In this document: piece after piece, positions 1-12,216 of the stretch
Layout of the letters: each line of letters starts with the position of its first letter
How positions within the stretch are numbered: position 1 is the stretch's first letter
DNA from: Desulfobacterales bacterium
Lineage (GTDB): Bacteria > Desulfobacterota > Desulfobacteria > Desulfobacterales > RPRI01
Direction: 5' to 3'
Length of the DNA stretch: 12,216 nt
Assembly: GCA_020052975.1 (NCBI GenBank)
Contig: JAGVOC010000392.1
Location: 1 to 12,216, forward strand
The notes under the pieces: generated by a model
Seen by the model: the letters and a program-made list of their open reading frames with translations, nothing else
Told to the model about the DNA's origin: nothing
The model's database searches: none
Translations under genes and position numbers: made by a program

Positions 1-5
1 GTCAG

Positions 6-52
6 GTCCAGTACCTTGTTCAGGCGCAAGGCGCCGGGACAAGGTACTGGAC
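6..52. repeat. Perfect 14-bp inverted repeat with nested 5-bp stem
   Basis: Positions 6-19 are the exact reverse complement of 39-52. Inside them a second stem pairs 23-27 (GGCGC) with 31-35 (GCGCC) around an AAG loop. Either strand can fold into a long two-part hairpin. No T-run follows on either side, so it is not a classical intrinsic terminator. It lies downstream of the attC site, in what would be the next cassette position or the chromosomal flank of the integron. Function unknown. It could be a REP-type palindrome or part of another element cut by the window edge. Confidence 0.75.
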
Positions 53-68
53 GTAGTCAGCACCGCGA

Positions 69-93
69 TTCACGGCGGCGCAGCCGCCGTGAA
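69..93. repeat. Perfect 11-bp GC-rich hairpin at the cassette boundary
   Basis: Positions 69-79 pair perfectly with 83-93 around a GCA loop. The right-hand edge (93 on the plus strand) coincides with the first base after the predicted G^TT crossover of the neighbouring attC site. Read on the minus strand, the sequence joined to the cassette therefore starts directly with this hairpin. It lacks a T-tract on both sides, so a Rho-independent terminator is unlikely. It may slow transcription or shield the end of the cassette transcript from exonucleases; that is inference. Confidence 0.7.
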
Positions 94-152
94 CATACGC
101 TTAACTTGCGAGGGCCCTGGTGGCCCGAGTCAAGTTGAAGCGGTTGTTAGGT
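92..152 (-). other. attC recombination site of an integron cassette
   Basis: On the minus (gene) strand the site opens with the R'' core ACCTAAC (152-146) and closes with a GTT triplet (94-92) that pairs with AAC of R''. The plus strand, which would be the recombinogenic bottom strand, folds as follows: 98-102 with 138-142 (CGCTT/AAGCG), 103-108 with 131-136 (AACTTG/CAAGTT), and 112-116 with 122-126, closing a small loop. A G at 137 and a T at 130 are left extrahelical, and a 3-by-3 unpaired spacer separates the core from the stem. Unpaired G and T on the bottom strand plus an unpaired central spacer are known attC hallmarks. The length of 61 bp is within the family range. The site overlaps the last codons and stop of the cassette gene, which is common. 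Weak point: the bases after GTT (CACG) do not match the RRRY part of the consensus. Confidence 0.68.
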
Positions 153-1303
153 TCTTGATCTTCTTTGATGCCGACTTAATGGGATCTGAGAACGCCAGGC
201 TTAACTTTGGAAGTTCGTCCACCATGAAGTCAATCATCTTGCTCCAGTCGTCGCTGTTGAAATAGTCGACCCCGTCAAGTTCGCACTTAATCCGAGAAGC
301 CTTCTTGTTGTCGAGTCGCTCCCAAATCAGAGGGGAGCCAAAGGCGTCTTCAATCGACGCACGCTGCGAAAACAAGAAGTCGAAGATGCTCTTGTTCTCT
401 TCTGCCGATGCACGAGAGATATACAGCTCCACACGCGCATAGTGGTTTGAGATGACTGAGTTGTAAGAAAGGCCACTCAAACCCGATCCTGAACCAATCC
501 AATTGTCCTTGCTTGGACTGATATTCTTGTAGAGGTCAGATTTCTTGTTCAGTTCTTTGAGAAACTTGGTCCAGAAATCAGTTCGGAGTCCATACCTAAC
601 CTTACTACTTTCTTGGGTGACAATGTCTTCCTGGGCCTTGTCAGCCATGCTGATCACGTACTCTTCCACGTCTCGCATTGGGATGATTTGCTCAATATCG
701 AGGAAGATATTCTCTCCGTGAGAGTATGGTACAATTTTAAAGCACTGTATTCTGAGTTTGTAGTTAGTCAGCCAGAGAGCCGTTGAAGTCACTTCTTTGC
801 GGAAGTTTCCGGCTACCATGATGATCCGTTGTGAGGTTCCTTGGTTCAGCTGAAGCTCATTGAATTCGGTGTTATCAAAGAACTCTACTAGATTGTCTGT
901 CGCGGATTCGGCTCTTCCCAGTTTGTCAAGGAATTCCTGGTAGATATCTCGAACCTGATTCTTGGTTAAGCTCGAACAGTAAGAAGCGTATTTTAGAACT
1001 TGCCAGGTTACGTCACGTCCCGAGTCGTCGAGTTTGTTCTCGATGACAACGAGATTCCCTTGTTTGTCCACGGCCAGGAGGTCAAGACGTTCATTTGTGT
1101 CACTGAACCCGGCGAATTCCTTTTGTATGACCAAGAGTTCTTCACCCAAACATCCGGGATTGTTTGCTACCCACTCTTGGAGGTTTTCACGTTCCTTGAA
1201 ACCAAGTTCCGAGAAGGTTCGCTGAACAACCTTCTCGATCTTGTTTTCGGTCCGGTTAACGAGATACATTCCAAAACCTCCTTTGCGTGAAGCGTCAACC
1301 TAA
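93..1303 (-). mobile_element. Single integron gene cassette
   Basis: The unit is bounded on the minus strand by a G^TTAGGT core (1304-1298) at its 5' end and by the attC site at its 3' end. It contains one promoter-poor gene that nearly fills it (stop codon inside attC, only about 29 bases from crossover to start codon). This is the standard one-gene, one-attC cassette architecture. It lies divergent from a recombinase-gene remnant, as cassettes do relative to intI. Whether further cassettes follow to the left cannot be seen. Confidence 0.6.
130..1269 (-). CDS. PD-(D/E)XK nuclease-like protein with DUF4268-type C-terminus, cassette-borne
   Basis: The 379-residue protein has two parts. Residues about 36-100 form a restriction-endonuclease-like fold: D63 in RLDLLAVD, then E77 and K79 in the IENK strand motif, followed by a helix with TWQVLKYASY. 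This is the arrangement of NucS/DUF91-type PD-(D/E)XK proteins. Residues about 228-362 resemble the DUF4268 region (conserved DFW near 231-233, many aromatic residues, the SRASAEENK stretch). Catalytic residues are present, so DNA or RNA cleavage is plausible, but the substrate is unknown. The start is an ATG preceded by AAAGGAGG (1284-1277) at 7-nt spacing, one of the best ribosome-binding sites in the window. The gene ends inside an attC site, so it is read as an integron cassette gene. A defence role is an inference from the nuclease fold and cassette location only. Confidence 0.82.
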   Translation of the reverse strand: MYLVNRTENKIEKVVQRTFSELGFKERENLQEWVANNPGCLGEELLVIQKEFAGFSDTNERLDLLAVDKQGNLVVIENKLDDSGRDVTWQVLKYASYCSSLTKNQVRDIYQEFLDKLGRAESATDNLVEFFDNTEFNELQLNQGTSQRIIMVAGNFRKEVTSTALWLTNYKLRIQCFKIVPYSHGENIFLDIEQIIPMRDVEEYVISMADKAQEDIVTQESSKVRYGLRTDFWTKFLKELNKKSDLYKNISPSKDNWIGSGSGLSGLSYNSVISNHYARVELYISRASAEENKSIFDFLFSQRASIEDAFGSPLIWERLDNKKASRIKCELDGVDYFNSDDWSKMIDFMVDELPKLSLAFSDPIKSASKKIKNLTTAST

Positions 1304-1304
1304 C
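1298..1304 (-). other. Recombination core GTTAGGT (attI/cassette junction)
   Basis: On the minus strand this reads GTTAGGT, a perfect GTTRRRY core, 29 bases upstream of the cassette gene's start codon. The same heptamer in opposite orientation forms the R'' box at 146-152, so the cassette gene sits between two cores as expected. No attC-like stem can be folded on the upstream side (1305-1370). This side is therefore better explained as attI than as the attC of a preceding cassette. Some attI sites have additional integrase-binding repeats, but none is obvious here. Confidence 0.5.
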
Positions 1305-1309
1305 AAGTT

Positions 1310-1350
1310 ATTATATCGTTTTATGTATATTATCAAACATGCGGTTTGAT
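1310..1350 (-). promoter_or_regulatory. Candidate Pc-like promoter with overlapping palindrome
   Basis: On the minus strand TTGATA (1336-1331) and a perfect TATAAT (1315-1310) are separated by 15 bp, slightly short of the sigma-70 optimum. Transcription would start near 1303, almost at the cassette junction. The -35 box overlaps a perfect 7-bp inverted repeat, ATCAAAC (1332-1338) and GTTTGAT (1344-1350) with a 5-nt spacer, which could be an operator. The promoter lies outside the cassette on the attI side, the position of a cassette promoter Pc in known integrons. Confidence 0.5.
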
Positions 1351-1478
1351 GTTAATAGGGTACGCATTATTGTCAATAAAATGGTGCAAATACAAGTTAA
1401 TTTTTCCGCTTATTGCGGTATGAAATGCAGTTATGTAATGATATATCGCATAGGGATAATAACGTATGGAGAAAAAAT

Positions 1479-1622
1479 ATGGTGAATTTCCCTGATTCCA
1501 ATCCAAGATATCATGAAATTCTTATTTCAAGAAATATTCCGCGTGAGCAATGGAGAATGTATAATAAATGGGCGCGGTTTTATCTGCATTTCGGTGCAAA
1601 GTACAGTTTTTTGTTCAACTTA
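1479..1622 (+). pseudogene. N-terminal remnant of a tyrosine recombinase (integron-integrase type)
   Basis: An ATG at 1479 has GGAG (1468-1471) at 7-nt spacing and opens a frame of about 48 codons. It resembles the start of the N-terminal SAM-like DNA-binding domain of Desulfobacterota-type integron/tyrosine recombinases. The run IPREQWRMYNKWARFYLHF followed by AKY matches from memory the family pattern in which IP, two aromatic residues, KW, R(F/Y)YL and KY are conserved. The rest of that domain and the whole catalytic domain (R...HxxR...Y) are missing. The open frame continues only into the antisense strand of vapC and stops at 1697. It is oriented away from the cassette, as intI is. Truncation probably happened when the vapBC segment joined at about 1610-1623. 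Assignment rests on motif recognition over about 40 residues, so it is moderate. Confidence 0.55.
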
Positions 1623-1623
1623 T

Positions 1624-1998
1624 TTATTTTTTGGGGAAATATTTCACATTATTTATATTTTCAAAATCTGAATCCTGAGTCCATAAAACGGCTTTGAATT
1701 CCCGGGCTGTTGCAAGAATGATGCTGTCTGCCATTGGAAGCTTATACTCAAGACTAACCCTTGACGCTGCAATTGCAATTTGAGTACTTAGTTCCACAAC
1801 CCTTCCTCTTTGCATGGCAACTACCGCCTGCAATGCATCATTTTCTCCGGACTCTCTCATAATGACCTTGAAGACTTCATATATCGTGACTGTTGGAACA
1901 ACAAGCAAATCCGGTTCACTCAACGGAGGCAGAAAATATGCGGCATTGGGCTCATCGGCAAAATATGCAAGCCAGCCGGAGGAATCCACAATATTCAT
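1624..1998 (-). CDS. vapC: VapC-type PIN-domain toxin ribonuclease
   Basis: The 124-residue protein is a single PIN domain, the usual length for type II VapC toxins, which are Mg-dependent endoribonucleases acting on tRNA or rRNA. The acidic quartet is visible: D5 (IVDSSGWL), E41 (TIYEV), D91 (MADSIILATA) and D109 or D111 (WTQDSDF). The gene follows vapB with a 4-base ATGA overlap (1995-1998), the typical coupled antitoxin-toxin layout. It ends in an AT-rich stretch directly against the recombinase remnant, so its downstream edge may be an insertion or recombination boundary. The toxin appears intact. Confidence 0.9.
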   Translation of the reverse strand: MNIVDSSGWLAYFADEPNAAYFLPPLSEPDLLVVPTVTIYEVFKVIMRESGENDALQAVVAMQRGRVVELSTQIAIAASRVSLEYKLPMADSIILATAREFKAVLWTQDSDFENINNVKYFPKK

Positions 1999-2201
1999 AC
2001 CCTGTCTTCTTCCCGTTTGAATTCAATGTTGATTCCCTTAATGAATCCGCGGAGCTCTTTTATATCCCGTTCAGGTATAAGCTCAATCCTGCCGGCATAT
2101 TCTACAATCTGCATTTTTTGGCCGGGACGCAGCTTCAATGCTTCTCTTACATTCTTAGGTATAACGACTTGATATTTTGGTGAGACAGTTACCGATTGCA
2201 T
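1995..2201 (-). CDS. vapB: VapB-type antitoxin, AbrB/MazE-like DNA-binding
   Basis: The 68-residue protein begins with the swapped-hairpin AbrB fold: VTVSPKYQVVIPKNVREAL with LRPGQKMQIV is the family signature (residues about 4-34). The acidic, flexible C-terminus (EFKREEDRV) would wrap and inhibit the VapC toxin. The start has GGAGG (2213-2209) at 7-nt spacing. The antitoxin normally binds its own promoter with the toxin and represses it; candidate palindromes lie just upstream. It overlaps vapC by ATGA. Confidence 0.9.
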   Translation of the reverse strand: MQSVTVSPKYQVVIPKNVREALKLRPGQKMQIVEYAGRIELIPERDIKELRGFIKGINIEFKREEDRV

Positions 2202-2233
2202 GACAAAACCTCCATCGATCTATTTTTGTATTA

Positions 2234-2262
2234 CGATATCATTATCGATATTGTTTTGTCAA
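2234..2262 (-). promoter_or_regulatory. Candidate vapBC promoter
   Basis: On the minus strand there is a consensus -35 TTGACA (2262-2257). A weak -10 follows at 17 bp (ATATCG, 2239-2234) or at 18 bp (TATCGT, 2238-2233). CGATAT occurs twice on the plus strand (2234-2239 and 2246-2251) with a 12-bp period across the -10 and spacer. This could be a VapB binding site, giving autoregulation. Start of transcription would be near 2227, about 25 bases before vapB. Confidence 0.45.
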
Positions 2263-2277
2263 TTATATTGATATAAT
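2251..2277 (+). promoter_or_regulatory. Candidate promoter for the NRDE gene, within a perfect palindrome
   Basis: The plus strand has a perfect TATAAT (2272-2277) with a weak TTGTTT (2251-2256) 15 bp upstream. The -10 is the right half of a perfect 7-bp inverted repeat, ATTATAT (2262-2268) and ATATAAT (2271-2277) with a 2-nt spacer. This repeat starts at the edge of the vapBC -35 box on the other strand. The two divergent promoters therefore share one short segment, and a protein bound to the palindrome could affect both. The transcript would begin near 2284, which argues against an NRDE start codon at 2276. Confidence 0.4.
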
Positions 2278-2305
2278 GTCATCAATATGTTATCAAGACT
2301 TAAAT

Positions 2306-3091
2306 ATGTGCCTGATTCTTTTATCATATCACAATCATCCATCTTACCGGCTGATCCTTGCGGCAAACAGGGATGAGTTTTATGACCGCCCGACGGCGCC
2401 TCTTGGTTTCTGGCCTGAAGCGCCCCATGTTCTGGCAGGAAGAGACCTGAAAAGCGGCGGAACATGGTTAGGAGTAACAAAAACAGAACGAATATGCGCT
2501 ATAACCAATTTCAGAGACCCCGCTGCCCAGATGCCTGATGCCCCGTCAAGAGGATTTCTTGTGGCAAATTATCTTAAAGGAAGCGAATCGCCTCTGACTT
2601 ACCTTGAAAAAGTCAAACCGGACGGGAAAAGATACAACGGATTCAATCTTCTGGCCGGAGACGAATCCGGTATTTTCTGGTTTTCAAACAGGTCGGGCGA
2701 AATATCAAGACTTTCTCCCGGCATTCACGGCTTAAGCAATCATCTTCTCGACACCCCATGGCCGAAAGTTGAAAAAGGGAAAAAGTGTTTTGAAAAAATT
2801 CTTTCTTCAGATGAGATGAACCGCGAAAGCATCTTTGGGCTCCTTTCGGACGGGGATATGCCGGACGACAGAGATCTGCCGGACACAGGTGTGGGTCTTG
2901 AATGGGAGAGGATTCTGTCACCCCTTTTCATCAAAAGCGATATCTACGGAACACGCTCATCTTCCATAGTTTTAATCGGGAAAGAAAAAATAACATTCAT
3001 GGAACGGACCTTCATCATAGACGGGGCAAACTCGGTAAAACATGAAACGCGAGAATTTTCTTTCCTTTTGGTTCCGGCTTGCCCAGGTTAG
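2306..3091 (+). CDS. NRDE family protein (TANGO2 homologue)
   Basis: The 261-residue product begins MCLIL and carries the NRDEF motif at residues 21-25. Further family blocks are SGGTWLGV (50-57), ITNFRDP (66-72), GFNLLAGD, GLSNHLLDTPWPKV and RSSSIVLI near the C-terminus. The invariant Cys2 and the overall pattern place it with TANGO2/NRDE proteins, which have an Ntn-hydrolase-like fold. Proposed roles in heme or lipid handling come from eukaryotic and a few bacterial members, and no reaction can be assigned here. The start at 2306 is chosen because Cys2 must follow Met1 in this family and because an upstream ATG at 2276 lies inside the predicted -10 box. No clear Shine-Dalgarno sequence precedes either one. 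The stop overlaps the end of convergent rarA by 4 bp. Confidence 0.85.
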   Translation: MCLILLSYHNHPSYRLILAANRDEFYDRPTAPLGFWPEAPHVLAGRDLKSGGTWLGVTKTERICAITNFRDPAAQMPDAPSRGFLVANYLKGSESPLTYLEKVKPDGKRYNGFNLLAGDESGIFWFSNRSGEISRLSPGIHGLSNHLLDTPWPKVEKGKKCFEKILSSDEMNRESIFGLLSDGDMPDDRDLPDTGVGLEWERILSPLFIKSDIYGTRSSSIVLIGKEKITFMERTFIIDGANSVKHETREFSFLLVPACPG

Positions 3092-4458
3092 TCCTTTCTT
3101 GATTTTTTCGACTCTGTTTTTTTCTCACCTTTAAGCTTTCGCCATTTATCCAGCCGGTCCTTAACGGCCTTTTCGTAACCTCTTTCAGATGGAAAGTAGA
3201 AAAGATGGCCTTCGAGCTTATCAGGCAGATATTCCTGGAAAACATATTCCTCTTTATAATCATGGGCATACTTGTAATCCTTGCCATACCCAAGATCTTT
3301 CATCAGAGCTGTCGGAGCGTTCCGGATATGCAGCGGGACCGGAAGCGCCCCTCCGTTTTTGACTGCTTCTTTTACTCTTCCGTATGCGGTATATATGCTG
3401 TTGCTCTTGGGAGCGGTTGCGAGATAAACGGCAGCCTGCGCAAGGGCAAGTTCGCCTTCCGGCTGTCCGATAAATTTAAATGCCTCCATTGCGTCTACCG
3501 TAACGCTCAAAGCATACGGGTCGGCGTTTCCGACATCCTCCGATGCAAATCTCACCATTCTCCTTGCGATATAAAGCGGATCCTCACCCGCAGCCAGCAT
3601 GCGCGCAAGCCAGTAGAGGGATGCATCGGGATCACTGCCTCTCATGCTCTTGTGAAGCGCCGAAATGAGGTTGTAATGCTCCTCGCCTGATTTGTCATAC
3701 AGCAGGGCCTTTTTCTGAAGGGCTTTTTCCAGATCTTCAAGGGTCAGGCTGACCGCTTCTCCGTTGCCCTGTGTTTTCGCGGTCGCTATCCCGGCCGCCA
3801 CTTCAAGGCTGTTCAAAGCCATGCGCGCATCACCGTCCGATATTCTCACAAGGTGGGACAGGACTTCGCCCGAAAGTTCAAGATTCGCGTTTCCGAGCCC
3901 CCTTTCCTTATCCTTTAAAGCCGCTTCGATTATCCTCGTAATATCTTCATCAGACAATGTTTTAAGCGTTATTACCCTGCAGCGTGAAAGAAGGGGAGCA
4001 ATGACCTCAAAGGAAGGATTTTCGGTCGTCGCGCCTATTAAAGTTATGAGACCGCTTTCCACATGATGAAGGAATGCGTCCTGCTGGGCCTTGTTGAATC
4101 TGTGGATCTCATCGACGAAAAGGATGGTTCTTTTTCTGTGAAGTTTAAGCTGATCTTTTGCTTCTTCGATAACAGATCTTATCTCTTTCACACCTGCTAA
4201 CACTGCCGAAAAATGAACAAAATATGAGCGGGTTTCAAGCGCTATTATTCTTGCAAGAGTGGTTTTACCGCATCCGGGAGGGCCCCAGAGAATCATTGAA
4301 AAAACCTGGTCTTTTTCTATTGCATGCCGGATCAGCGTCCCGCTGCCGACAACATGCTCCTGCCCTGCGAACTCATCTATGTTCCGCGGACGCATCTTCT
4401 CGGCAAGAGGTCTTGATTCATTTACCATTTTTTGGGAGCTGTGTTCAAAAAGATCCAA
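3088..4458 (-). CDS. rarA: Replication-associated recombination protein A (AAA+ ATPase)
   Basis: The 456-residue protein is a full-length RarA/MgsA. This clamp-loader-like AAA+ ATPase acts at stalled replication forks with SSB and RecA. Visible elements: Walker A GPPGCGKT (59-66), Walker B ILFVDE (112-117) followed by IHRFNKAQQD, and sensor 1 IGATTENP (141-148). The C-terminal tetramerisation domain includes LHKSMRGSDPDASLYWLARML and RMVRFASEDVGNADP. The first residues MDLF could be a sliding-clamp contact, which is inference. The start codon is TTG, supported by GAGG (4469-4466) at 7-nt spacing and by the family's usual N-terminus. It begins 21 bases after der, so the two are probably one transcript. 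The C-terminus is a lysine/serine-rich tail. Confidence 0.95.
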   Translation of the reverse strand: MDLFEHSSQKMVNESRPLAEKMRPRNIDEFAGQEHVVGSGTLIRHAIEKDQVFSMILWGPPGCGKTTLARIIALETRSYFVHFSAVLAGVKEIRSVIEEAKDQLKLHRKRTILFVDEIHRFNKAQQDAFLHHVESGLITLIGATTENPSFEVIAPLLSRCRVITLKTLSDEDITRIIEAALKDKERGLGNANLELSGEVLSHLVRISDGDARMALNSLEVAAGIATAKTQGNGEAVSLTLEDLEKALQKKALLYDKSGEEHYNLISALHKSMRGSDPDASLYWLARMLAAGEDPLYIARRMVRFASEDVGNADPYALSVTVDAMEAFKFIGQPEGELALAQAAVYLATAPKSNSIYTAYGRVKEAVKNGGALPVPLHIRNAPTALMKDLGYGKDYKYAHDYKEEYVFQEYLPDKLEGHLFYFPSERGYEKAVKDRLDKWRKLKGEKKTESKKSRKD

Positions 4459-4479
4459 GGCTTTTCCTCAATAACCCTT

Positions 4480-5808
4480 TTATTTTTTCGTATGCCTGTC
4501 CCCTTCCCGCTTCCTGAAAATTATCTTTACCGGCGTTTTGTCAAGCTCTGAGCCTTCCCTGATCTGGTTGACAAGATAACGACTGTAAGAAAAATGAACC
4601 CCATCAGGAAAATTTACAAAGCAGACAAATGTAGGGGGCTTAACAGATACCTGAGTTGCATAGTAAAATTTAAGCCTTCTTCCTTTATAGAGAGGCGGCT
4701 CGGTTTTTTTTACAGCAACCTCAAAGATCCTGTTTAATTCGCCGGTTCCGATTCTTCTTTCATACTGGCCGTAGACTTCTTCGACCAGATTAAAGATTTT
4801 CGAAACTCCGTGGCCTGTTTTGGCTGAAATCACCATTGCAGGCGCAAAGTTCAAAAACTTGGCATCGTATCTCAACCGGTCAATGAGTATTTTCCTTGTA
4901 TTATCTTCTTTTTCAACAGCATCCCACTTATTCAGGAGAAAGATGCAGCCGCATCCCCGCTCAAAGGCATATCCCGCAACACTTATGTCCTGCTCCGTTA
5001 TGCCCTCTGAAGCGTCTATGATGATCAGCGCTACATCGCACCTGTCAAGGCTTTTCAATGCCTTAATAATGGAAAACTTTTCTATTTTTTTTGATACTTT
5101 TCCCTTTCGGCGAATCCCGGCAGTATCTATGAGAAGATATGATTTCCCCTTTGTTTCATATATGGAATCAACTGCATCCCGGGTTGTTCCGGGGATATCA
5201 CTCACTATATGCCGTTCTTTTCCGAGAATCCTGTTGATGAGAGACGATTTTCCGACATTTGGCCTTCCAATTACAGCAACCTTGGCCATATCCTGGGATT
5301 TTTCATAAACAACTCTTGGCATTTTATCAACAAGATCGTCAAGAAAGTCCGGAATTCCATAGCCATGTTCAGCCGAAACTGAATATGGATTTTCTATGCC
5401 CAGATTGTAAAAATCATAAAGATTTATCTCTTTTTCATCACCATCTATTTTATTTACAACATAATAAATCTGTTTACCGGCTGTCCTGAGCATCTCAATA
5501 ATGTCATGATCAAAAGGTGAAACACCCCCTTTTCCGTCCAGCATCAGGATAATGACATCCGCATTATCAATAGCCTCTTTTACCTGGAAACGGACTTTTG
5601 AGATAATATCATCGTCCTCGCCGTCTATAAAGCCGCCTGTGTCGACAAGTGTAAATTGAACATCGTTCCAGACGGCATCCCGGTAGATAGAGTCCCTTGT
5701 TACACCGGGGAAATTATCGACAATAGCGTCTTTTGTCCTAGTAACACGGTTAAAAAAGGTCGATTTGCCGACATTGGGTCTGCCGACGATAGCTACAATA
5801 GGTTTCAT
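4480..5808 (-). CDS. der: Ribosome biogenesis GTPase Der (EngA), two tandem G domains
   Basis: The 442-residue protein is an essential-type GTPase for assembly of the 50S ribosomal subunit. G domain 1 has GRPNVGKST (9-17), DTGG (56-59), NKID (119-122) and SAE (145-147). G domain 2 has GRPNVGKSS (181-189), DTAG, NKWD and SAKTG. A KH-like C-terminal domain follows, ending in a basic tail. The start at 5808 (MKPIVAIVGRPNVGKST) matches where the family begins. An in-frame TTG at 5859 would add 17 residues without family support. The Shine-Dalgarno sequence before 5808 is poor. The 115 bases between it and aapP hold no evident terminator, so some read-through from the aap operon is possible. rarA follows in the same direction. 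Confidence 0.95.
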   Translation of the reverse strand: MKPIVAIVGRPNVGKSTFFNRVTRTKDAIVDNFPGVTRDSIYRDAVWNDVQFTLVDTGGFIDGEDDDIISKVRFQVKEAIDNADVIILMLDGKGGVSPFDHDIIEMLRTAGKQIYYVVNKIDGDEKEINLYDFYNLGIENPYSVSAEHGYGIPDFLDDLVDKMPRVVYEKSQDMAKVAVIGRPNVGKSSLINRILGKERHIVSDIPGTTRDAVDSIYETKGKSYLLIDTAGIRRKGKVSKKIEKFSIIKALKSLDRCDVALIIIDASEGITEQDISVAGYAFERGCGCIFLLNKWDAVEKEDNTRKILIDRLRYDAKFLNFAPAMVISAKTGHGVSKIFNLVEEVYGQYERRIGTGELNRIFEVAVKKTEPPLYKGRRLKFYYATQVSVKPPTFVCFVNFPDGVHFSYSRYLVNQIREGSELDKTPVKIIFRKREGDRHTKK

Positions 5809-5923
5809 TTTATAAACTGTATGATCCAAATAAAAGGTTGATAGAGACGCTTTGCACAATTCTCAAAGTGAAAGGAGTCATGCAAATCTCTCAGAACAGA
5901 AACAGGAAAACGGCTGATAAACA

Positions 5924-6700
5924 CTAATGCAGGATCTGGCTTAAAAACAGTTTGGTCCTGTCATGCTGCGGATTGTCAAAAAATTCGTGAGGGGTATTCT
6001 CTTCAACAATCTGACCAAAATCCATGAAAAGAACCCTGTGGGCAACGCTTTTTGCGAATCCCATTTCGTGGGATACAACAATCATTGTCATGCCTTCCTC
6101 AGCAAGGTTTATCATTACATCGAGTACCTCTTTAACCATTTCAGGATCAAGAGCTGAAGTCGGCTCGTCAAAGAGCATGACTTTCGGCTTCATGCAAAGG
6201 CTTCGTGCAATTGCGACCCTTTGCTGCTGACCACCTGAAAGCTGCCCCGGATACTTGTTCGCCTGTTCCGCAATATGAACTTTTTCCAGATAATACATTG
6301 CCGTCTCTTCAGCTTCTTTTTTTGGCACTTTTCTGACCCATATCGGACCAAGAGATAAGTTTTCAATGATTGAAAGATGGGGGAAAAGGTTGAAATGCTG
6401 GAATACCATGCCGACTTCTTCACGTATTTTTTCGATGTTCTTGAGATTGCCGGTGAGTTCAATTCCGTCAACTATAATTTTACCCTTCTGGTGCTCCTCA
6501 AGTCTGTTGATGCAGCGGATAAGGGTCGATTTTCCTGATCCCGATGGCCCGCAGATAACTATGCGTTCACCCTTGAACACGGTAAGGTTTATATCTATTA
6601 AGACATGAAAGTCGCCGAACCACTTGTTCATGTCGATAATTTCAATAATCTTATCTTCAGAAGACCGCTTTATGCTGTTTGTTGTCGCTTCGCTGCTCAT
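5924..6700 (-). CDS. aapP: General L-amino-acid ABC transporter, ATP-binding subunit
   Basis: The 258-residue cytoplasmic ATPase powers the polar amino-acid importer encoded just upstream. Motifs: Walker [10 protein letters not shown] (51-59), Q-loop Q101, signature LSGGQQQR (154-161), Walker B VMLFDEP (174-180), D-loop SALD (182-185) and H-loop H211. It is close in type to GlnQ/GltL/AapP. The operon context, behind AapJ, AapQ and AapM, selects AapP. About 17 extra N-terminal residues precede the conserved core. The gene is separated from aapM by a 128-bp inverted-repeat element whose left edge is only 25 bases before the start codon, so its translation signal (a weak GGATAGAGAG) must lie in that short gap. 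Confidence 0.92.
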
Positions 6701-6725
6701 GAATCTCTCTATCCTTTTTTATTTT

Positions 6726-6853
6726 TGACGGCTTCGTAAAAAGCTCATTATGCAAGGCGCGCAAATCTTGAGGAATAAAGCGTACTTATTGGTACGCTGC
6801 AATGACGAAAGATGAAGTGCAACGCAGCAGAATGGCTTTTTACGAAGCCGTCA
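6726..6853. mobile_element. 128-bp MITE-like element with perfect 19-bp terminal inverted repeats
   Basis: Positions 6726-6744 (TGACGGCTTCGTAAAAAGC) are the exact reverse complement of 6835-6853. The 90-bp interior has further complementarity, such as AGCGTAC (6779-6785) with GTACGCT (6792-6798). The whole unit can fold into a long interrupted hairpin. It carries no gene. I recall similar GACGGCTTCGTAAAAAG ends as dispersed repeats in Desulfobacterota genomes; that is memory, not a search. No clear target-site duplication is visible. It sits between aapM and aapP, and its right edge overlaps the aapM stop codon. In the aap mRNA it would form a large stem-loop that could act as a processing or stability element. 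Confidence 0.75.
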
Positions 6854-7948
6854 GGAATGCAGCTCTTTCTCAAGGCGTCGGCTGTAATTTGACATCGTAT
6901 AACAGCACACGAAATAAATCAAAGCCACAAAAATATAGGCTTCCGAGCTGAATCCCATCCATGCCGGATCCGCAAGTGTGGTTCTTGTGGTCTTTAAAAT
7001 CTCGTACAGAGCAATTATAACAACCAGTGATGTGTCCTTGAATGCCGATATCAGTATTCCGACCGTGGGCGGAATAACAATCTTCAATGCCTGTGGCAGA
7101 ATAATCAGCCTCATTTTCTGGGCATAATTCAAACCCAGAGATTCTGCCGCCTCGTACTGTCCTCTTGTTATTGCCTGCAAGCCTCCCCTCACAACTTCAG
7201 CTATGTATGCTGCCGTGAACATGATTATTGCAGCCTGCGCCCTGATAATCTTGTTTATCGTGACCCCTTCCGGGAGAAACAACGGGAAGAGAACCGCCGA
7301 CATGAAAAGAAGGCTTATGAGAGGAACGCCCCGTATCAGCTCAATATAAATTATGCTTACCGTTCTGACGGCGGGCATTTTCGATCTTCGTCCGAGAGCA
7401 AGAAGGATTCCAAGAGGATATGCCGCAACCATTCCAAAAACAGAGAGCATGAGTGTAAGAGGCAGCCCGCCCCATTGATCGCTGTCAACAGTAGCCAATC
7501 CTAACAAACCGCCTTTCATAAGCAGTCCCATTACAATAAGACCGGCAATCCAGATGTATACAAGTGACTTTTTCCAGTTATCCCTGTTTTTACAGTATAA
7601 GAGCAGGCTCACCATCATTATCATGGCCAGCAGGGGGCGCCAGTGCAATTCATGCGGGTAGAAGCCGAATATTATAAACCGTATGTTGGAAGGAATTATA
7701 GACCAGCATGCTCCGTCTACGTCACGACATTCTTTTGCCGTCGAGAACCATAGACTGTCAATAAATGCCCATTTTATAAAAGGAGGTACAACTTTATACA
7801 AAAGAATAAGTGTAAGGATTGTAAGAATCGAATTAAAAACACCGTTGAACAGGTTCGATTTAATCCATTGCAGGGCTCCGATCCTGATTACAGGCGCCTT
7901 TAATCCCAAGGCATGAATTTTATTTTTTTTTGATTTGTCTTTTGACAT
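6851..7948 (-). CDS. aapM: General L-amino-acid ABC transporter permease
   Basis: The 365-residue inner-membrane subunit of the Aap importer has an N-terminal membrane segment near 36-56 and further segments near 104-118 and 129-150. The conserved HisM-type permease domain runs from about 163 to 355. The EAA loop that docks on the ATPase is clear: EAAESLGLNYAQKMRLIILP (266-285) continuing to PP at 293-294. The large region before the permease domain is characteristic of AapM rather than of short GlnP-type permeases. It starts 14 bases after the aapQ stop, which implies cotranscription. Its stop codon TGA consists of the outermost three bases of the inverted-repeat element that follows. The final residues LEKELHS look like a normal end, so any loss is at most a few residues. 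Confidence 0.93.
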   Translation of the reverse strand: MSKDKSKKNKIHALGLKAPVIRIGALQWIKSNLFNGVFNSILTILTLILLYKVVPPFIKWAFIDSLWFSTAKECRDVDGACWSIIPSNIRFIIFGFYPHELHWRPLLAMIMMVSLLLYCKNRDNWKKSLVYIWIAGLIVMGLLMKGGLLGLATVDSDQWGGLPLTLMLSVFGMVAAYPLGILLALGRRSKMPAVRTVSIIYIELIRGVPLISLLFMSAVLFPLFLPEGVTINKIIRAQAAIIMFTAAYIAEVVRGGLQAITRGQYEAAESLGLNYAQKMRLIILPQALKIVIPPTVGILISAFKDTSLVVIIALYEILKTTRTTLADPAWMGFSSEAYIFVALIYFVCCYTMSNYSRRLEKELHS

Positions 7949-7962
7949 GTTTATGGAATTTT

Positions 7963-9159
7963 CTATCTTTCAATAAGAGCCATTTTCTTATTATACCAGT
8001 TCATAAATAAGGACGTCAGGAGGCTGAAGCATAGATAAACCACCATTATCAGAGTAACTCCTTCAATGGCCTGCCCGGTCTGGTTTATAGTCGTGCTGGC
8101 AACCGAAACAAAGTCGGGAAATCCTATTGCAACTGCAAGGGAGCTGTTTTTTGTGAGGTTTAACATCTGGCTTGTAAGCGGCGGAATAATAACTCTTAAT
8201 GCCTGGGGTAAAATGACAAGATTTAATATTTGACCGGGCTTTAATCCAATCGACATGGCTGCTTCAGTCTGACCTTTGCTTATAGCCTGAATACCCGCTC
8301 TCACAATTTCCGCAACAAAAGAGGCGGTATAAAGAACAAGACCCAGCAAAAGAGCTCCGAATTCAGGACTCACATTTATGCCGCCCTGAAAATTGAATCC
8401 CACAAGCTCCGGAACATCCATTTTATGGGGCGCTCCGAAGAACAACCATGTCATAAGAGGTAATCCAAGGATAATGGCAATTGAGCAAATGAATACGGGA
8501 AAAGTCTGCCCTGTTATTTCCTGGCGTTTTTTAGCCCACCTTCTTACAAACCAGGCTATTGCACAGCCCGTTATAAAAGCTGCGGCCATGTATTTATATG
8601 CAGGATGCTCCTCCGGAACCGCAAAAACGAACCCCCGGTTGCTGATAAAAATCCCCTTCACAGGTTCAAGCGCTTCACGCGGTGAAGGCAGAACGTCATA
8701 AAAAAAGGAATACCAGAAAAAGAGCTGGAGAAGAATAGGAATATCCTGTGTGACTTCAATATATACAGCGGCAAGCTTTGAAACGAGCCAGTTTGTGGAA
8801 AGGCGGGCGATCCCTAAAAAAGTTCCAAGTATAACCGTAAGAACAATGCCTATGAAGGCCACCTTGATTGTGTTCAAAACACCTACAAGCATGGCCTTTC
8901 CATATGTATCCGCAGCGGAATAGGATATCAGTGATTCGCCTATTTCGAATGCAGCCTCCTTGTCAAAAAAGCCAAAACCAGTGGCAATAGATTGTCTGTG
9001 AAGATTTTCAACCGTGTTCGTAAAAAGATAATATCCGAGTAGCCCGACCATCCCTATCGTTACAACCTGATATATAATCGAGCGCATTTTCGGATCATTC
9101 AAAAAAGAAATGTTCTGTCCGGTATTATTTATGGAACCTGAATTATTGCTTTTTTGCAT
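7963..9159 (-). CDS. aapQ: General L-amino-acid ABC transporter permease
   Basis: The 398-residue permease pairs with AapM. One membrane segment lies near 29-47, the start of the conserved permease domain near 92-118, and further segments near 190-205, 222-241, 266-285 and 366-386. The ATPase-docking EAA loop is EAAMSIGLKPGQILNLVILP (299-318) ending in PP at 326-327. TQDIPILLQLFFWY (137-150) is typical of this family. A long insertion between about 155 and 262 is usual for AapQ. The start at 9159 is preceded by a modest AAGAG. A strong hairpin separates it from aapJ, so it is probably expressed below the level of the binding protein. Confidence 0.93.
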   Translation of the reverse strand: MQKSNNSGSINNTGQNISFLNDPKMRSIIYQVVTIGMVGLLGYYLFTNTVENLHRQSIATGFGFFDKEAAFEIGESLISYSAADTYGKAMLVGVLNTIKVAFIGIVLTVILGTFLGIARLSTNWLVSKLAAVYIEVTQDIPILLQLFFWYSFFYDVLPSPREALEPVKGIFISNRGFVFAVPEEHPAYKYMAAAFITGCAIAWFVRRWAKKRQEITGQTFPVFICSIAIILGLPLMTWLFFGAPHKMDVPELVGFNFQGGINVSPEFGALLLGLVLYTASFVAEIVRAGIQAISKGQTEAAMSIGLKPGQILNLVILPQALRVIIPPLTSQMLNLTKNSSLAVAIGFPDFVSVASTTINQTGQAIEGVTLIMVVYLCFSLLTSLFMNWYNKKMALIER

Positions 9160-9223
9160 TCAATTCTCTTGCGGCATTTCAATTGATTAAAATTTTGCGA
9201 TAAATTGCAGCGCGTTGTTTATT

Positions 9224-9273
9224 AAAAAATAGCTGACGGCAAGGGACGAATTCGCCCTCTGCCATCAGCTATT
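9224..9273 (-). terminator. Terminator-like hairpin between aapJ and aapQ (attenuator)
   Basis: AATAGCTGA (9228-9236) pairs with TCAGCTATT (9265-9273). After one mismatch GGCA (9238-9241) pairs with TGCC (9260-9263), and GGG with CCC near the loop. On the minus strand the stem is followed by six T residues (9229-9224), the form of a Rho-independent terminator. An A-run at 9274-9279 gives it a partly bidirectional look. It lies about 30 bases after the aapJ stop and within the operon. Partial termination or protection of the upstream mRNA would leave more aapJ than aapQMP message, as is usual for periplasmic binding proteins. Confidence 0.8.
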
Positions 9274-9302
9274 AAAAAAGTAAAACTTCAAAATCAGATT
9301 TG

Positions 9303-10319
9303 TCATTTAAAAGGCGGAGAATACATAAGGCCGCCGTCTTTCCAGAGGGCATTTAAACCGCGTTCCAGTTTGAGCGGGGTATTCTTACCTACATTGCGCT
9401 CAAAAACCTCATCATAATTTCCTACCTGCTTAACGATATTGTATGCCCATTTTTCGCTGAGCCCGAGAGCTTTTCCGTTTCCGGGTGTAACTCCGAGAAA
9501 ACGCATAATAGCAGGGTTTGTGCTTTTCAGCATTTCATCAACGTTTTTCGATGTAATACCAAGCTCTTCTGCTTCGATCATTGCAAGAACAGAGTAATTC
9601 ACTATATCTTTCCACTGGTTATCGCCATGTCGTACTACCGGAGCAAGAGGTTCCTTTGAAATGATATCAGGGAGAATCATATAATCATCAGGGTTGGGAG
9701 CAACTGCGCGCACACCGGCAAGCTGGGATGCATCGGATGTCATGCAGTCACATCTTCCTGCAAAAAAAGCCTTGTTGAGTTCTGCATTTTGTTCAATTAC
9801 AACAGGCTTCATCTTCATCTTGTTGGTTCTGAAATAATCGGCGACGTTAAGTTCGGTTGTGGTTCCGGGGAGAACACAAACCGTTGCGCCGTCAAGCTCT
9901 TTAGCCCTTTTGATTTTAAGCTTCTTGGGTACCAGAAAGCCCTGGCCGTCATAATAGTTGACCTGGGCAAAATCAAGGCCAAGCTCCGTATCGCGCCCGA
10001 GAGTCTGTGTTGCATTCCGGCACAGCACATCGACTTCACCGGCCTGCAGAGCGGTAAAACGCTGAACTGCCGTCAAGGGAACAAACTTTATCTTGTTGGT
10101 ATCGCCGAATACTGCCGCGGCGATAGCGCGCGCCGTATCAACATCAAGACCGCGCCATACGCCTTTTTCATCCGGCTTAGCGAAACCGAACAAATCGCCG
10201 TTTACCCCTACCTGAACAAAACCTTTTGCCTTGACAGAATCAAGAGTCTGTCCGGCAAAAGCGACTCCGGACATGGCAAATACAATTGCCGTTACCAAGC
10301 ATAACTTAAATAGCTTCAT
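9303..10319 (-). CDS. aapJ: General L-amino-acid-binding periplasmic protein
   Basis: The 338-residue precursor has a signal peptide of about 22 residues (lysine at 2 and 5, hydrophobic core, cleavage after GVAFA). It is followed by a family-3 solute-binding protein. Recognisable blocks are VQVGVNGDLFGFAKPDEKGVWRG near the mature N-terminus, GLDVDTARAIAAAVFGD, FTALQAGEVDVLCRNATQTLGRD, AGRCDCMTSDASQLAG and the end GGLMYSPPFK. This set is characteristic of AapJ-type proteins, which deliver a broad range of L-amino acids to AapQM. The start at 10319 is chosen because AGGAGG (10333-10328) lies 8 bases upstream and the signal peptide begins there. The longer frame to 10385 would bury the signal sequence. 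First gene of the operon. Confidence 0.95.
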   Translation of the reverse strand: MKLFKLCLVTAIVFAMSGVAFAGQTLDSVKAKGFVQVGVNGDLFGFAKPDEKGVWRGLDVDTARAIAAAVFGDTNKIKFVPLTAVQRFTALQAGEVDVLCRNATQTLGRDTELGLDFAQVNYYDGQGFLVPKKLKIKRAKELDGATVCVLPGTTTELNVADYFRTNKMKMKPVVIEQNAELNKAFFAGRCDCMTSDASQLAGVRAVAPNPDDYMILPDIISKEPLAPVVRHGDNQWKDIVNYSVLAMIEAEELGITSKNVDEMLKSTNPAIMRFLGVTPGNGKALGLSEKWAYNIVKQVGNYDEVFERNVGKNTPLKLERGLNALWKDGGLMYSPPFK

Positions 10320-10549
10320 CTGTTTTTCCTCCTTTTTCGTTTTATGTTTATCAATTAAAATTGGTAAACAGTCCCTTAAAATCATCTTAATCCTGCAAAA
10401 TAATTATTTGCATATGCGCATTACAATGTTGTAGATATCATATTTATTAAATATATATCAATATCAAAATGTACGGGCTTGTAAAAAGTTATTAATTTTA
10501 ATAATTATGGAGCGCCTCCAGAAGATTATGGATAAGGCATACCCTGCCC
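10320..10549. promoter_or_regulatory. Divergent AT-rich control region between aapJ and the diguanylate cyclase gene
   Basis: This gap must hold promoters for both divergent genes. It is AT-rich, especially 10430-10507. No strong sigma-70 pair stands out; a TTGTAA at 10479-10484 on the plus strand lacks a good -10. A small perfect stem, TGGAG (10508-10512) with CTCCA (10516-10520), lies just before the cyclase frame. A second, CCTGC (10543-10547) with GCAGG (10555-10559), places the ATG at 10550 in its loop. No riboswitch consensus was recognised. Confidence 0.4.
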
Positions 10550-11776
10550 ATGCAGCAGGCGACCGGAGTTCGCAATTTGAATCGACCCATGACAACAAAC
10601 CACGAGGTACAAGACCAGGAACTTGAAGCCAGAAACAAAATGAGTATTATGCAAAAGTCTCAGGGAAATAGTGCTGACCAAAAAATTGATAGAGCACCTT
10701 TGGATAACAATGCCAAACAAAGGATTATAATCACCCGGACTCTTATGGCTATGGGCGGGGCCGGGGCTTTTTCCCTGCTGCTTCTGGCCTGCTTTAAGCT
10801 GGGGTTATTCAGGGGCTCTCTGTCCGATATTTTCATGATTCTTGCTGTAGGCTGGGCAGGATATATAGCCATTTTCGTTTTCATCCTCACAGGGGTGAAC
10901 CAGCGATTCAAAGATAACGGCATGACCTTGCTTCAGATCACCTGGGTAACCGCAGTCCTGATGGTGTCTGTTTACTACATAGACCAAGTGCGGATGCTTT
11001 TTCTCATGCTCTATCTGATGGTCATGCTTTTTGCTGCTTTCCGGCTCCGTCTCGACGGCTTTCTATTTATCACCGTAATTGCGATTTTTGGCTATGGTTC
11101 AGTAATTTTGTTACTTTCCAGGAGTCACCCTCAGACGCTTGACCTCAAAATAGAAATAATTCAGTGGCTGGGCTTCGCATTTACCTTGGGCGGCTTTTCA
11201 ATCGTCGGATCGGAGCTAAGCACACTCCGCCAGATGCTGAAATCCCGCAATGTTCAACTTCAAGGCGCATTAAAGAAAGTAAATGAGATGGCGATTACCG
11301 ACGAACTGACCGGTATTTTCAACCGCCGCCATATTATGGATGTGCTCAAGTATCAAAAATCCATGGCCGACCGGGGAGATTATATTTTTGTCGTCTGCTA
11401 TGCCGATCTGGATCATTTCAAGGAGGTCAATGACCGCTTCGGCCACAGTACGGGTGATATTGTCCTGCAGAAATTTTCTGATCTGACTAAAGATGTTATA
11501 CGCGAAGTGGATTATATTGCCCGTTTCGGCGGAGAAGAATTTCTCCTCATTCTGGTCAAAACATCCCTGCCTGAAGCCATTGTTGTGTCCGAAAGGGTCC
11601 GCGAAAGGATCGGAAAGTTCAGTTTCGGTGATCTGTCTCCTGATCTGCACATAACGGTTTCAATCGGGGTTGCCGAGTATCAGCCCGGGGAGCGGATCGA
11701 AGACCTGCTTGACCGGGCAGACGCAGCCCTTTACCGCGCCAAAGAGTCCGGCAGAAACAGGGTTGTTTCGGCCTGA
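10550..11776 (+). CDS. Membrane-anchored diguanylate cyclase (GGDEF domain)
   Basis: The protein is up to 408 residues. A polar N-terminus is followed by six predicted membrane segments (about 64-82, 93-114, 127-145, 148-167, 170-190, 201-221), a short coiled linker, and a GGDEF domain from about 248 to the end. The active site is GGEEF (327-331), preceded by DELTGIFNRR and the metal-binding DLDHFKEVND. The inhibitory RxxD site is intact (REVD, 318-321), five residues before GGEEF, so it should make c-di-GMP from two GTP with product inhibition. The membrane part has no recognised sensor family. The start is uncertain: ATGs at 10550, 10589, 10640 and 10649 are all in frame and none has a good ribosome-binding site. 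It is divergent from aapJ, which may only be proximity. Confidence 0.9.
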   Translation: MQQATGVRNLNRPMTTNHEVQDQELEARNKMSIMQKSQGNSADQKIDRAPLDNNAKQRIIITRTLMAMGGAGAFSLLLLACFKLGLFRGSLSDIFMILAVGWAGYIAIFVFILTGVNQRFKDNGMTLLQITWVTAVLMVSVYYIDQVRMLFLMLYLMVMLFAAFRLRLDGFLFITVIAIFGYGSVILLLSRSHPQTLDLKIEIIQWLGFAFTLGGFSIVGSELSTLRQMLKSRNVQLQGALKKVNEMAITDELTGIFNRRHIMDVLKYQKSMADRGDYIFVVCYADLDHFKEVNDRFGHSTGDIVLQKFSDLTKDVIREVDYIARFGGEEFLLILVKTSLPEAIVVSERVRERIGKFSFGDLSPDLHITVSIGVAEYQPGERIEDLLDRADAALYRAKESGRNRVVSA

Positions 11777-11817
11777 GATCTCGAAAATCGAGCTTGACCT
11801 CATATCCAATTCACTTT

Positions 11818-12216
11818 TCATTTCAATCTTCCCAAAAGGCCTTTCTGCAACACCTTTGCTATAGGACCGACCTTGCCGTTACCTACAGGCCGGGCGTCGA
11901 TCTGCACAACCGGAAGCACTTCGGTTATGGTTCCGGTCAGAAAGACTTCATTTGCCTCATAAAGCTCACTCTTATCGAAAAAGCGCTCTTCCACCGGATA
12001 TCCTTTCTCCCGGCATATATCAAGAACCAGTGACCGCGTAATACCGGGCAGTATATCAGGAGTGAGCGGATGAGTAATCAGCATGCCTACGGATAAGATG
12101 AACAGATTCGAACTGCTCCCCTCGCGGACAATCCCGTCCTTTGAAACAAAAATTGCGTCATAGCATCCGGCATCCAAAGCCTTCTGCTTCGCAAGCACAT
12201 TGGGCAGAAGCTGGAC
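11818..12216 (-). CDS. D-alanine aminotransferase-type class IV aminotransferase, 3' part only
   Basis: The C-terminal 132 residues of a fold-type IV PLP enzyme; the gene continues past the right edge in frame. Visible blocks are VQLLPNVLAKQKA, DGIVREGSSSNLF (the SSSN turn that binds cofactor phosphate), LPGITR, and EANEVFLTGTITEVLPVVQID near the end. These fit D-amino-acid (D-alanine) aminotransferases somewhat better than branched-chain aminotransferases. The former supply D-glutamate or D-alanine for cell-wall precursors. The PLP-binding lysine lies upstream of the visible part, so activity cannot be judged. It is convergent with the diguanylate cyclase gene, 41 bases apart, with only a small CTCGA/TCGAG stem (11780-11792) between them. 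Confidence 0.85.
   Translation of the reverse strand, partial: VQLLPNVLAKQKALDAGCYDAIFVSKDGIVREGSSSNLFILSVGMLITHPLTPDILPGITRSLVLDICREKGYPVEERFFDKSELYEANEVFLTGTITEVLPVVQIDARPVGNGKVGPIAKVLQKGLLGRLK

Follow-up and report, generated by a model that had tools for sequence, protein, structure and literature searches.

Inactivated integrases, integrons in Desulfobacterota and CALINs (attC clusters with no integrase) are already in print, as described in parts of PMC8618304, which also present a Xanthomonas chromosomal integron with an inactivated integrase. According to the sections of PMC12901181 that define it, the attC site comprises an R'' box (RYYYAAC), an L''/L' stem with an extrahelical base and an R' box (GTTRRRY). 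Gene-less or ORF-less cassettes, treated in portions of PMC11014356 and PMC6557892, contain no ORF and can stand first after attI; the Vibrio set of 491-666 bp acts as promoters in the account given in part of PMC11014356. Delta-attI-type cassettes, in the relevant portion of PMC12901181, are solo attI pieces within arrays of mobile integrons, in which the piece forms the end of a resistance cassette.

The window, i.e. the whole stretch of DNA that was analysed, comprises 12,216 nt from a Desulfobacterales bacterium (contig JAGVOC010000392.1, GCA_020052975.1, positions 1 to 12,216) and holds an integron platform of known kind. We are confident in reading it as a chromosomal integron with a truncated intI, next to a VapBC pair, which has kept its attI and cassette promoter, carries a probable defence gene in an IntI-inserted first cassette and has an ORF-less cassette in second position. 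Its features are as follows.

1..93, minus strand: start (93 nt) of a second cassette, ORF-less and about 160 nt long when complete, which the window edge truncates (matches in relatives, boundaries, covariation)
88..152, minus strand: attC of cassette 1, with R'' ACCTAAC, L'' CGCTT-C-AACTTG (extrahelical C), L' CAAGTTAAGCG and R' GTTCACG (fold, covariance models)
94..1303, minus strand: gene cassette 1, integrated form, 1210 nt (crossovers 1304|1303 and 94|93; end repeats AACCTAAC/GTTAGGTT)
130..1269, minus strand: DUF4268 protein of 379 aa, PD-(D/E)XK nuclease-like, phage-defence candidate PDC-S11 (profile matches, alignment, predicted fold)
1304..1478, minus strand: attI region with a probable cassette promoter, TATAAT at 1310-1315 and TTGATA at 1331-1336 with 15-nt spacing (conserved in genomes G529 and G531; promoter by eye)
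1479..1610, plus strand: truncated intI for an integron integrase of the long form, retaining its start codon and extra N-terminal domain but no catalytic domain (profile match at 1491-1607, weak matches in relatives, DNA alignment with G529)
1624..1998, minus strand: VapC-like PIN toxin immediately beyond the intI break (profile matches; a 71% identical copy flanked by attCs in G498)
1995..2201, minus strand: AbrB/MazE-type antitoxin partner (profile matches)

The locus resembles the Xanthomonas integron, as described in parts of PMC8618304, in its attI, cassette array and broken integrase. Unlike that case, it belongs to another phylum, its integrase is of the long form with an extra N-terminal domain, and its attI occurs at three loci of one genus with no integrase found beside any. 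In common with CALINs as characterized in sections of the same source, it has attC cassettes without a functional intI; unlike them, it keeps attI and the start of intI. Two or more attC sites without intI define a CALIN, and in the window one attC was scored, the second unit being cut by the edge.

The RarA protein of the window is 91% identical to that of genome G234, the next genome standing at 70% (395 genomes of one phylum), and the DNA of the two is 87% identical over the TANGO2-rarA stretch and 90% over der. On these identities the window appears to belong in the genus of G234, of which ten genomes are referred to below as the same genus, and to the phylum Desulfobacterota. This agrees with the sequence-only reading, an earlier annotation made without database searches, which had placed the integron outside Gammaproteobacteria: the RarA-closest genome lies in the same phylum as the deltaproteobacterial genome L001 discussed below. 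The locus adds an integron relic from a sparsely sampled lineage.

The attI junction and the integrase remnant

The frame opening at 1479 was compared with a profile built from the N-termini of 23 integron integrases, which a TIGR02249 search had supplied; the remnant itself was left out (26 loci were reduced to 23, as L220 and L222 gave no ORF by motif and L228 duplicates L183). Positions 1491-1607 (+) match this profile over 39 residues with 24.8 bits (E 2.4e-7 among 282 ORF segments), against a best score of 10.1 bits in 60 block-shuffled windows. Homology to integrases stops at 1607, and the catalytic part is missing. The remnant (1479-1610) has no Pfam or NCBIfam match, and tblastn against plasmids and phages returned none; weak matches (E <= 0.01, best 5e-5) occur in 17 of the 395 genomes of the phylum. 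Since intI is reduced to an N-terminal remnant, the locus is a relic and not a complete integron, as the sequence-only reading had proposed. The order and divergence it described are likewise present: the intI start at 1479 (+) adjoins attI and is followed by the core at 1304|1303, the cassette (-) and its attC.

Two same-genus relatives define the attI boundary to the base. Among the ten same-genus genomes, window positions 1302-1568 are present in G529 at 81% identity and 1299-1467 in G531 at 85%; among 389 genomes of the order, the only further response to attI is one match of about 30 nt. The three copies align up to ACGATATAATAACTTG|TT and diverge beyond, similarity stopping at ...TATAATAACTTG|TT, i.e. 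at the 1304|1303 junction. On the cassette side of the core, the relatives match the window at 18/53 and 20/50 positions. Both have other first cassettes at the same attI, and their ORFs onward have attC-like sites between them. Three of these sites trained the covariance models used below, which fixes their scores by construction; an untrained one (L174, 3835-3902) reaches 17.6 bits (E 0.078). Rfam returned nothing at gathering scores on L174-L178.

These relatives bear on the possibility that a chance or attG-type secondary site received the cassette and that the recombinase-like ORF is unrelated. The closest homologous cassette, in L001, would suit this idea, having no integrase within 9.4 kb by profile search. 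However, it is contradicted by the same attI-intI 5' sequence standing before different first cassettes in the two relatives, and the remnant matches the integrase N-terminus profile; we regard a secondary site as highly improbable. Under the truncated-integron reading, cassette 1 would have been inserted by IntI recombination at G1304|T1303 (attI x attC), before or after the loss of intI, and its gene would be transcribed from the promoter at the attI end. A promoter scan at 16-18 nt spacing found two sites other than the boxes listed above, no more than expected by chance (1.5).

The deletion or rearrangement that removed the rest of intI would have left about 43 codons and ended near 1607-1623, beside VapBC, with attI and the cassette promoter surviving. 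The match between the window and G529 reaches 1568, after which the G529 frame stops, and G531 departs at 1467. The remnant DNA is 71/90 identical to that of G529, whose own remnant, in the matching frame, is absent from the N-terminus profile matches at E <= 1. The neighbours also differ, with VapBC and TANGO2 in the window and, by eye, an aldo/keto-reductase-like ORF and a CoA-dehydratase-activase-like ORF in the relatives, so the three breaks look independent. The intact intI that related genomes might have shown at this attI was not found: a full-length integrase profile gave nothing beside the attI of G529 and G531 (4.8 and 10.4 kb).

Integrases do occur elsewhere. TIGR02249 matches over the cut-off were obtained in 75 of 146 genomes of the order and 0 of 14 controls; within the genus 7 of 10 genomes have one, including G531, and G529, G461 and G532 are without. 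G234 holds an open 341-aa integrase elsewhere in its genome. Action in trans is therefore possible, and any further cassette traffic at the window's attI would need such an integrase. The sequence-only reading took the cassette to be frozen unless a recombinase acts in trans and suggested that it was retained for a function; both proposals are conjectural. A stronger version would make this an active platform on which intI is lost recurrently, the attI-promoter piece being kept as an integrase-less landing pad served from elsewhere. It draws on the genus integrases, on three attI copies at three loci with different cassettes and no integrase found beside any, on the conservation of attI near the core (66/74 and 73/78 in the two relatives, against 71/90 for the remnant in G529) and on genome G513, where two identical 94-nt attI-like ends are separated by about 3 kb and the 6-kb stretch yielded no integrase. 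Against this, the different cassettes may predate the loss of intI, attI further from the core (78/92 and 70/90) is no better conserved than the remnant, G529 has no integrase over the cut-off, and three genomes are a small sample. We consider an active platform unlikely, if still a serious candidate, and retain the relic reading.

Several further observations concern truncated integrases and the right flank. Just past the truncated frame of G529, L174 857-997 (-) weakly resembles an integrase N-terminus (11.1 bits, E 0.02). Beside the attI of G531, at the expected place of intI, a direct repeat of about 110 nt (L175, about 6100-6210 and 6690-6800, by eye) may mark a rearrangement. Open frames of 54-97 aa with a similar integrase N-terminus were seen in L114, L115, L117, L120, L133, L135 and L136, some at contig ends, and truncated integrases may be common in the phylum.

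The VapBC pair (1624-2201) abuts the intI break. Its homologue in G498 (L177, 4030-4610) lies between attC sites at 4615-4701 (28.4 bits by model R1, untrained) and 3900-3962 (which trained R1), and in G525 (L171) attC-like repeats flank the homologue by eye. The window pair was rejected as a cassette, no attC having been found there, unlike in G498. Beside TANGO2, where the window has its integron, G234 carries toxin-antitoxin-like ORFs (L110, 3231-4580; PIN-type, by eye), with no integrase and no sequence similar to the window's integron; the TANGO2 flank is perhaps an insertion spot. A TANGO2 query in the genome contigs gave 57 pattern matches, 0 of them confirmed, and Rfam gave in the window only one sub-threshold L19 leader (2424-2468).

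Cassette 1, its attC and its DUF4268 protein

The two ends of cassette 1 correspond: the core GTTAGGTT (1304-1297, -), when reverse-complemented, gives exactly R'' AACCTAAC at the other end (153-146, -), with 10/10 bases complementary. In the attC, R'' ACCTAAC matches RYYYAAC, and the R' triplet is G94|TT within GTTCACG (94-88), whose outer four bases, supplied by the next unit, are unlike RRRY. GTATGTT was ruled out as R', as the stem and spacer fit GTTCACG.

Hand-made attC scores gave mixed results. The first failed to discriminate, giving the 152-88 site 11.5 against 14.0 for two coding places in the window and up to 12.0 for 3-mer shuffles; a second was too strict, returning a single candidate in all; and a third ranked the site best in the window (11.0) along with 50 candidates elsewhere in 372 kb. 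Covariance models were used in their place, built without the window site from attC-like sites of related arrays chosen by hand-made scoring. With E-values to be taken as rough, model R1 (8 training attCs) scores 152-88 at 15.3 bits (E 0.034), the top of the 12.2 kb on both strands, and model R2 (15 sites, additionally trained on R1 hits) at 23.0 bits (E 7e-4), the next best in the 12.2 kb having 12.2 bits. The R2 alignment covaries, with 81.1% of cells paired, a value equalled by 0 of 500 shuffles and compared with at most 39.4% in slid versions. The site also folds with z = -3.9. The score is modest, and the covariance search that the sequence-only reading had recommended bears out its foldable attC at the end of the cassette.

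The nuclease-like character claimed for the cassette gene is borne out at the profile level. The ORF at 1269-130 (-) matches DUF4268 (PF14088) at 4e-39, with PD-(D/E)XK and NucS family matches below cut-off (Pfam, NCBIfam), and it matches the PADLOC profile PDC-S11 from end to end (1.6e-162, 1-373 of 375). In 45 aligned sequences, D63, E77, Q90 and Y94 are invariant and K79 is conserved in at least 90%. These residues fit what we take to be a D...ExK...QxxxY nuclease site. The predicted fold has a pLDDT of 82.3; Foldseek against pdb gave 0 matches at E <= 0.001, and the best ones were NucS 2vld (E 3e-3) and EndoMS 5gke, with low TM-scores (0.32-0.34, by target), so the fold backs the nuclease reading weakly. 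By sequence, no PDB chain matched at E <= 0.01. From its family matches and conserved residues, the protein would be a PD-(D/E)XK-like nuclease, probably acting as a single-gene anti-phage defence. It resembles the PADLOC system PDC-S11/DUF4268 in its full-length match and differs in lying within an integron cassette; the function is a candidate one. Such a phage-defence candidate occupies the first cassette position.

Relatives of the protein are numerous (7083 of 7997 scored candidates at E <= 0.001), and at E <= 1e-20 they occur in 7 of 311 genomes of the order, at places 31-60% identical. The closest genome homologue, at 77%, is that of L001, in a 'Deltaproteobacteria bacterium', and the gene there ends in an attC (29.9 bits, E 2.4e-5 by R1; L001 is among the training sites of R2 and absent from R1). 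Of the 80 homologues in genomes, the remaining 79 (50-64% identity) gave no attC at E <= 1 (R2, default filters, 80 DUF4268 loci, 823,760 bases), and the gene family is therefore mostly not cassette-borne. The sequence-only reading would have been refuted by relatives showing the nuclease gene without recombination cores; the closest one, L001, has such a site.

The ORF-less unit at the window edge

The sequence-only reading saw a single cassette, which needs revision: a second, ORF-less unit starts at 93 (-), at the TT of G|TT directly after the attC of cassette 1, and runs off the window; the array would continue beyond it. At E <= 0.01, matches to window 1-95 occur in 41 of the order's 291 genomes searched, many of them partial. 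The best is 93% identical over 94 nt, and copies lie 1-2 kb apart in G513 and G421. Among 32 copies read (in L238-L267), 28 begin with GTT, the exceptions being L251, L253, L259 and L261. An attC by model ends at the start of the element in 17/32 (13.7-32.9 bits), several other copies follow an attI-like end such as ...TATAATCACTTG, and an integrase N-terminus lies beside the element in G662 and G557. The complete copies measure 158-165 nt in 24 of 25 cases and 119 nt in one. Their 3' end reads ...GA|TT in 22/25 and ...G|TT in three, all from G626, so that an own attC would mostly have an ATT core in place of GTT, in a part lying outside the window. In seven copies an attC was scored downstream, and the bases that follow the element are complementary to the R'' of that attC at 6/6 positions in four copies, 5/6 in L260 and 4/6 in L266 (L267, a partial hit, does not allow the comparison), so the element has a 3' boundary that behaves like that of a cassette.

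The element is strongly structured. Seven of the 32 copies, lacking a start or end, were dropped; the remaining 25 gave 22 distinct sequences, and without the 119-nt L254 the alignment holds 21 plus the window. Its fold has 62 pairs with 91.5% of cells paired, 20 pairs being changed on both sides; 0 of 500 shuffles were as high and slid versions reached at most 39.8%, while the number of further pair types was not above shuffles (315/500). With model R2, 25/32 copies have an attC-like site in their 3' half (11.4-28.7 bits, E <= 5), and in 14 of these the hit reaches E <= 0.1. The attC counts around the copies use all 55 model hits, and the 23-hit subset gives the same counts.

The G-TT...A-TT boundaries would equally suit a small transposon-like hairpin element that duplicates TT when it inserts into G|TT cores, and the element is indeed hairpin-rich, with an outer stem free of an extrahelical base. 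This alternative is at odds with the attC-like sites in the 3' half, with the first bases pairing with an inner R''-like repeat in 22/22 rows (both-side changes at two pairs), and with the AAC/GTT cores of the G626 copies; we judge it improbable. Membership of window 93-1 in an ORF-less cassette family is the best reading.

The family looks undescribed: no description was found in the literature searched or in Rfam, where the five loci carrying full copies (L238, L240-L243) gave one tRNA at gathering and, below threshold, matches of microRNA type and to the Thr leader, some of which fall within the element; its core pattern gave 0 matches in viral contigs. This tiny, structured family is absent from Rfam at gathering scores. 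Like the gene-less cassettes described in parts of PMC11014356 and PMC6557892, it has no ORF and can stand first after attI. Unlike the Vibrio set of 491-666 bp, as presented in part of PMC11014356, its members are about 160 nt long, mostly have an ATT and not a GTT core, and share a conserved covarying fold in many genomes. By analogy with the promoter activity of that set, it may plausibly act as a promoter or leader. We tentatively propose, slightly short of calling it probable, an undescribed family of gene-free, strongly structured integron cassettes of about 160 nt across a deltaproteobacterial order, with two head-to-head sets of attC-like arms and a crossover mostly at A|TT, not G|TT, which would be moved by integrases and serve as a structured leader or promoter before the next cassette, including on integrase-less attI platforms. 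The ATT core would test how strictly integrases require the GTT triplet.

Two minor observations concern individual copies. In G513 (L248, G513:C1), the two attI-like ends at 957 and 3999 are each followed by an ORF-less element; they recall the solo attI pieces of the Delta-attI type, as outlined in part of PMC12901181, but precede an ORF-less element instead of ending a resistance cassette. In G498, a very short attC-like site (L178, 2617-2659) has 23 exact bases in common with window 43-65 and is possibly a shortened derivative of the element.
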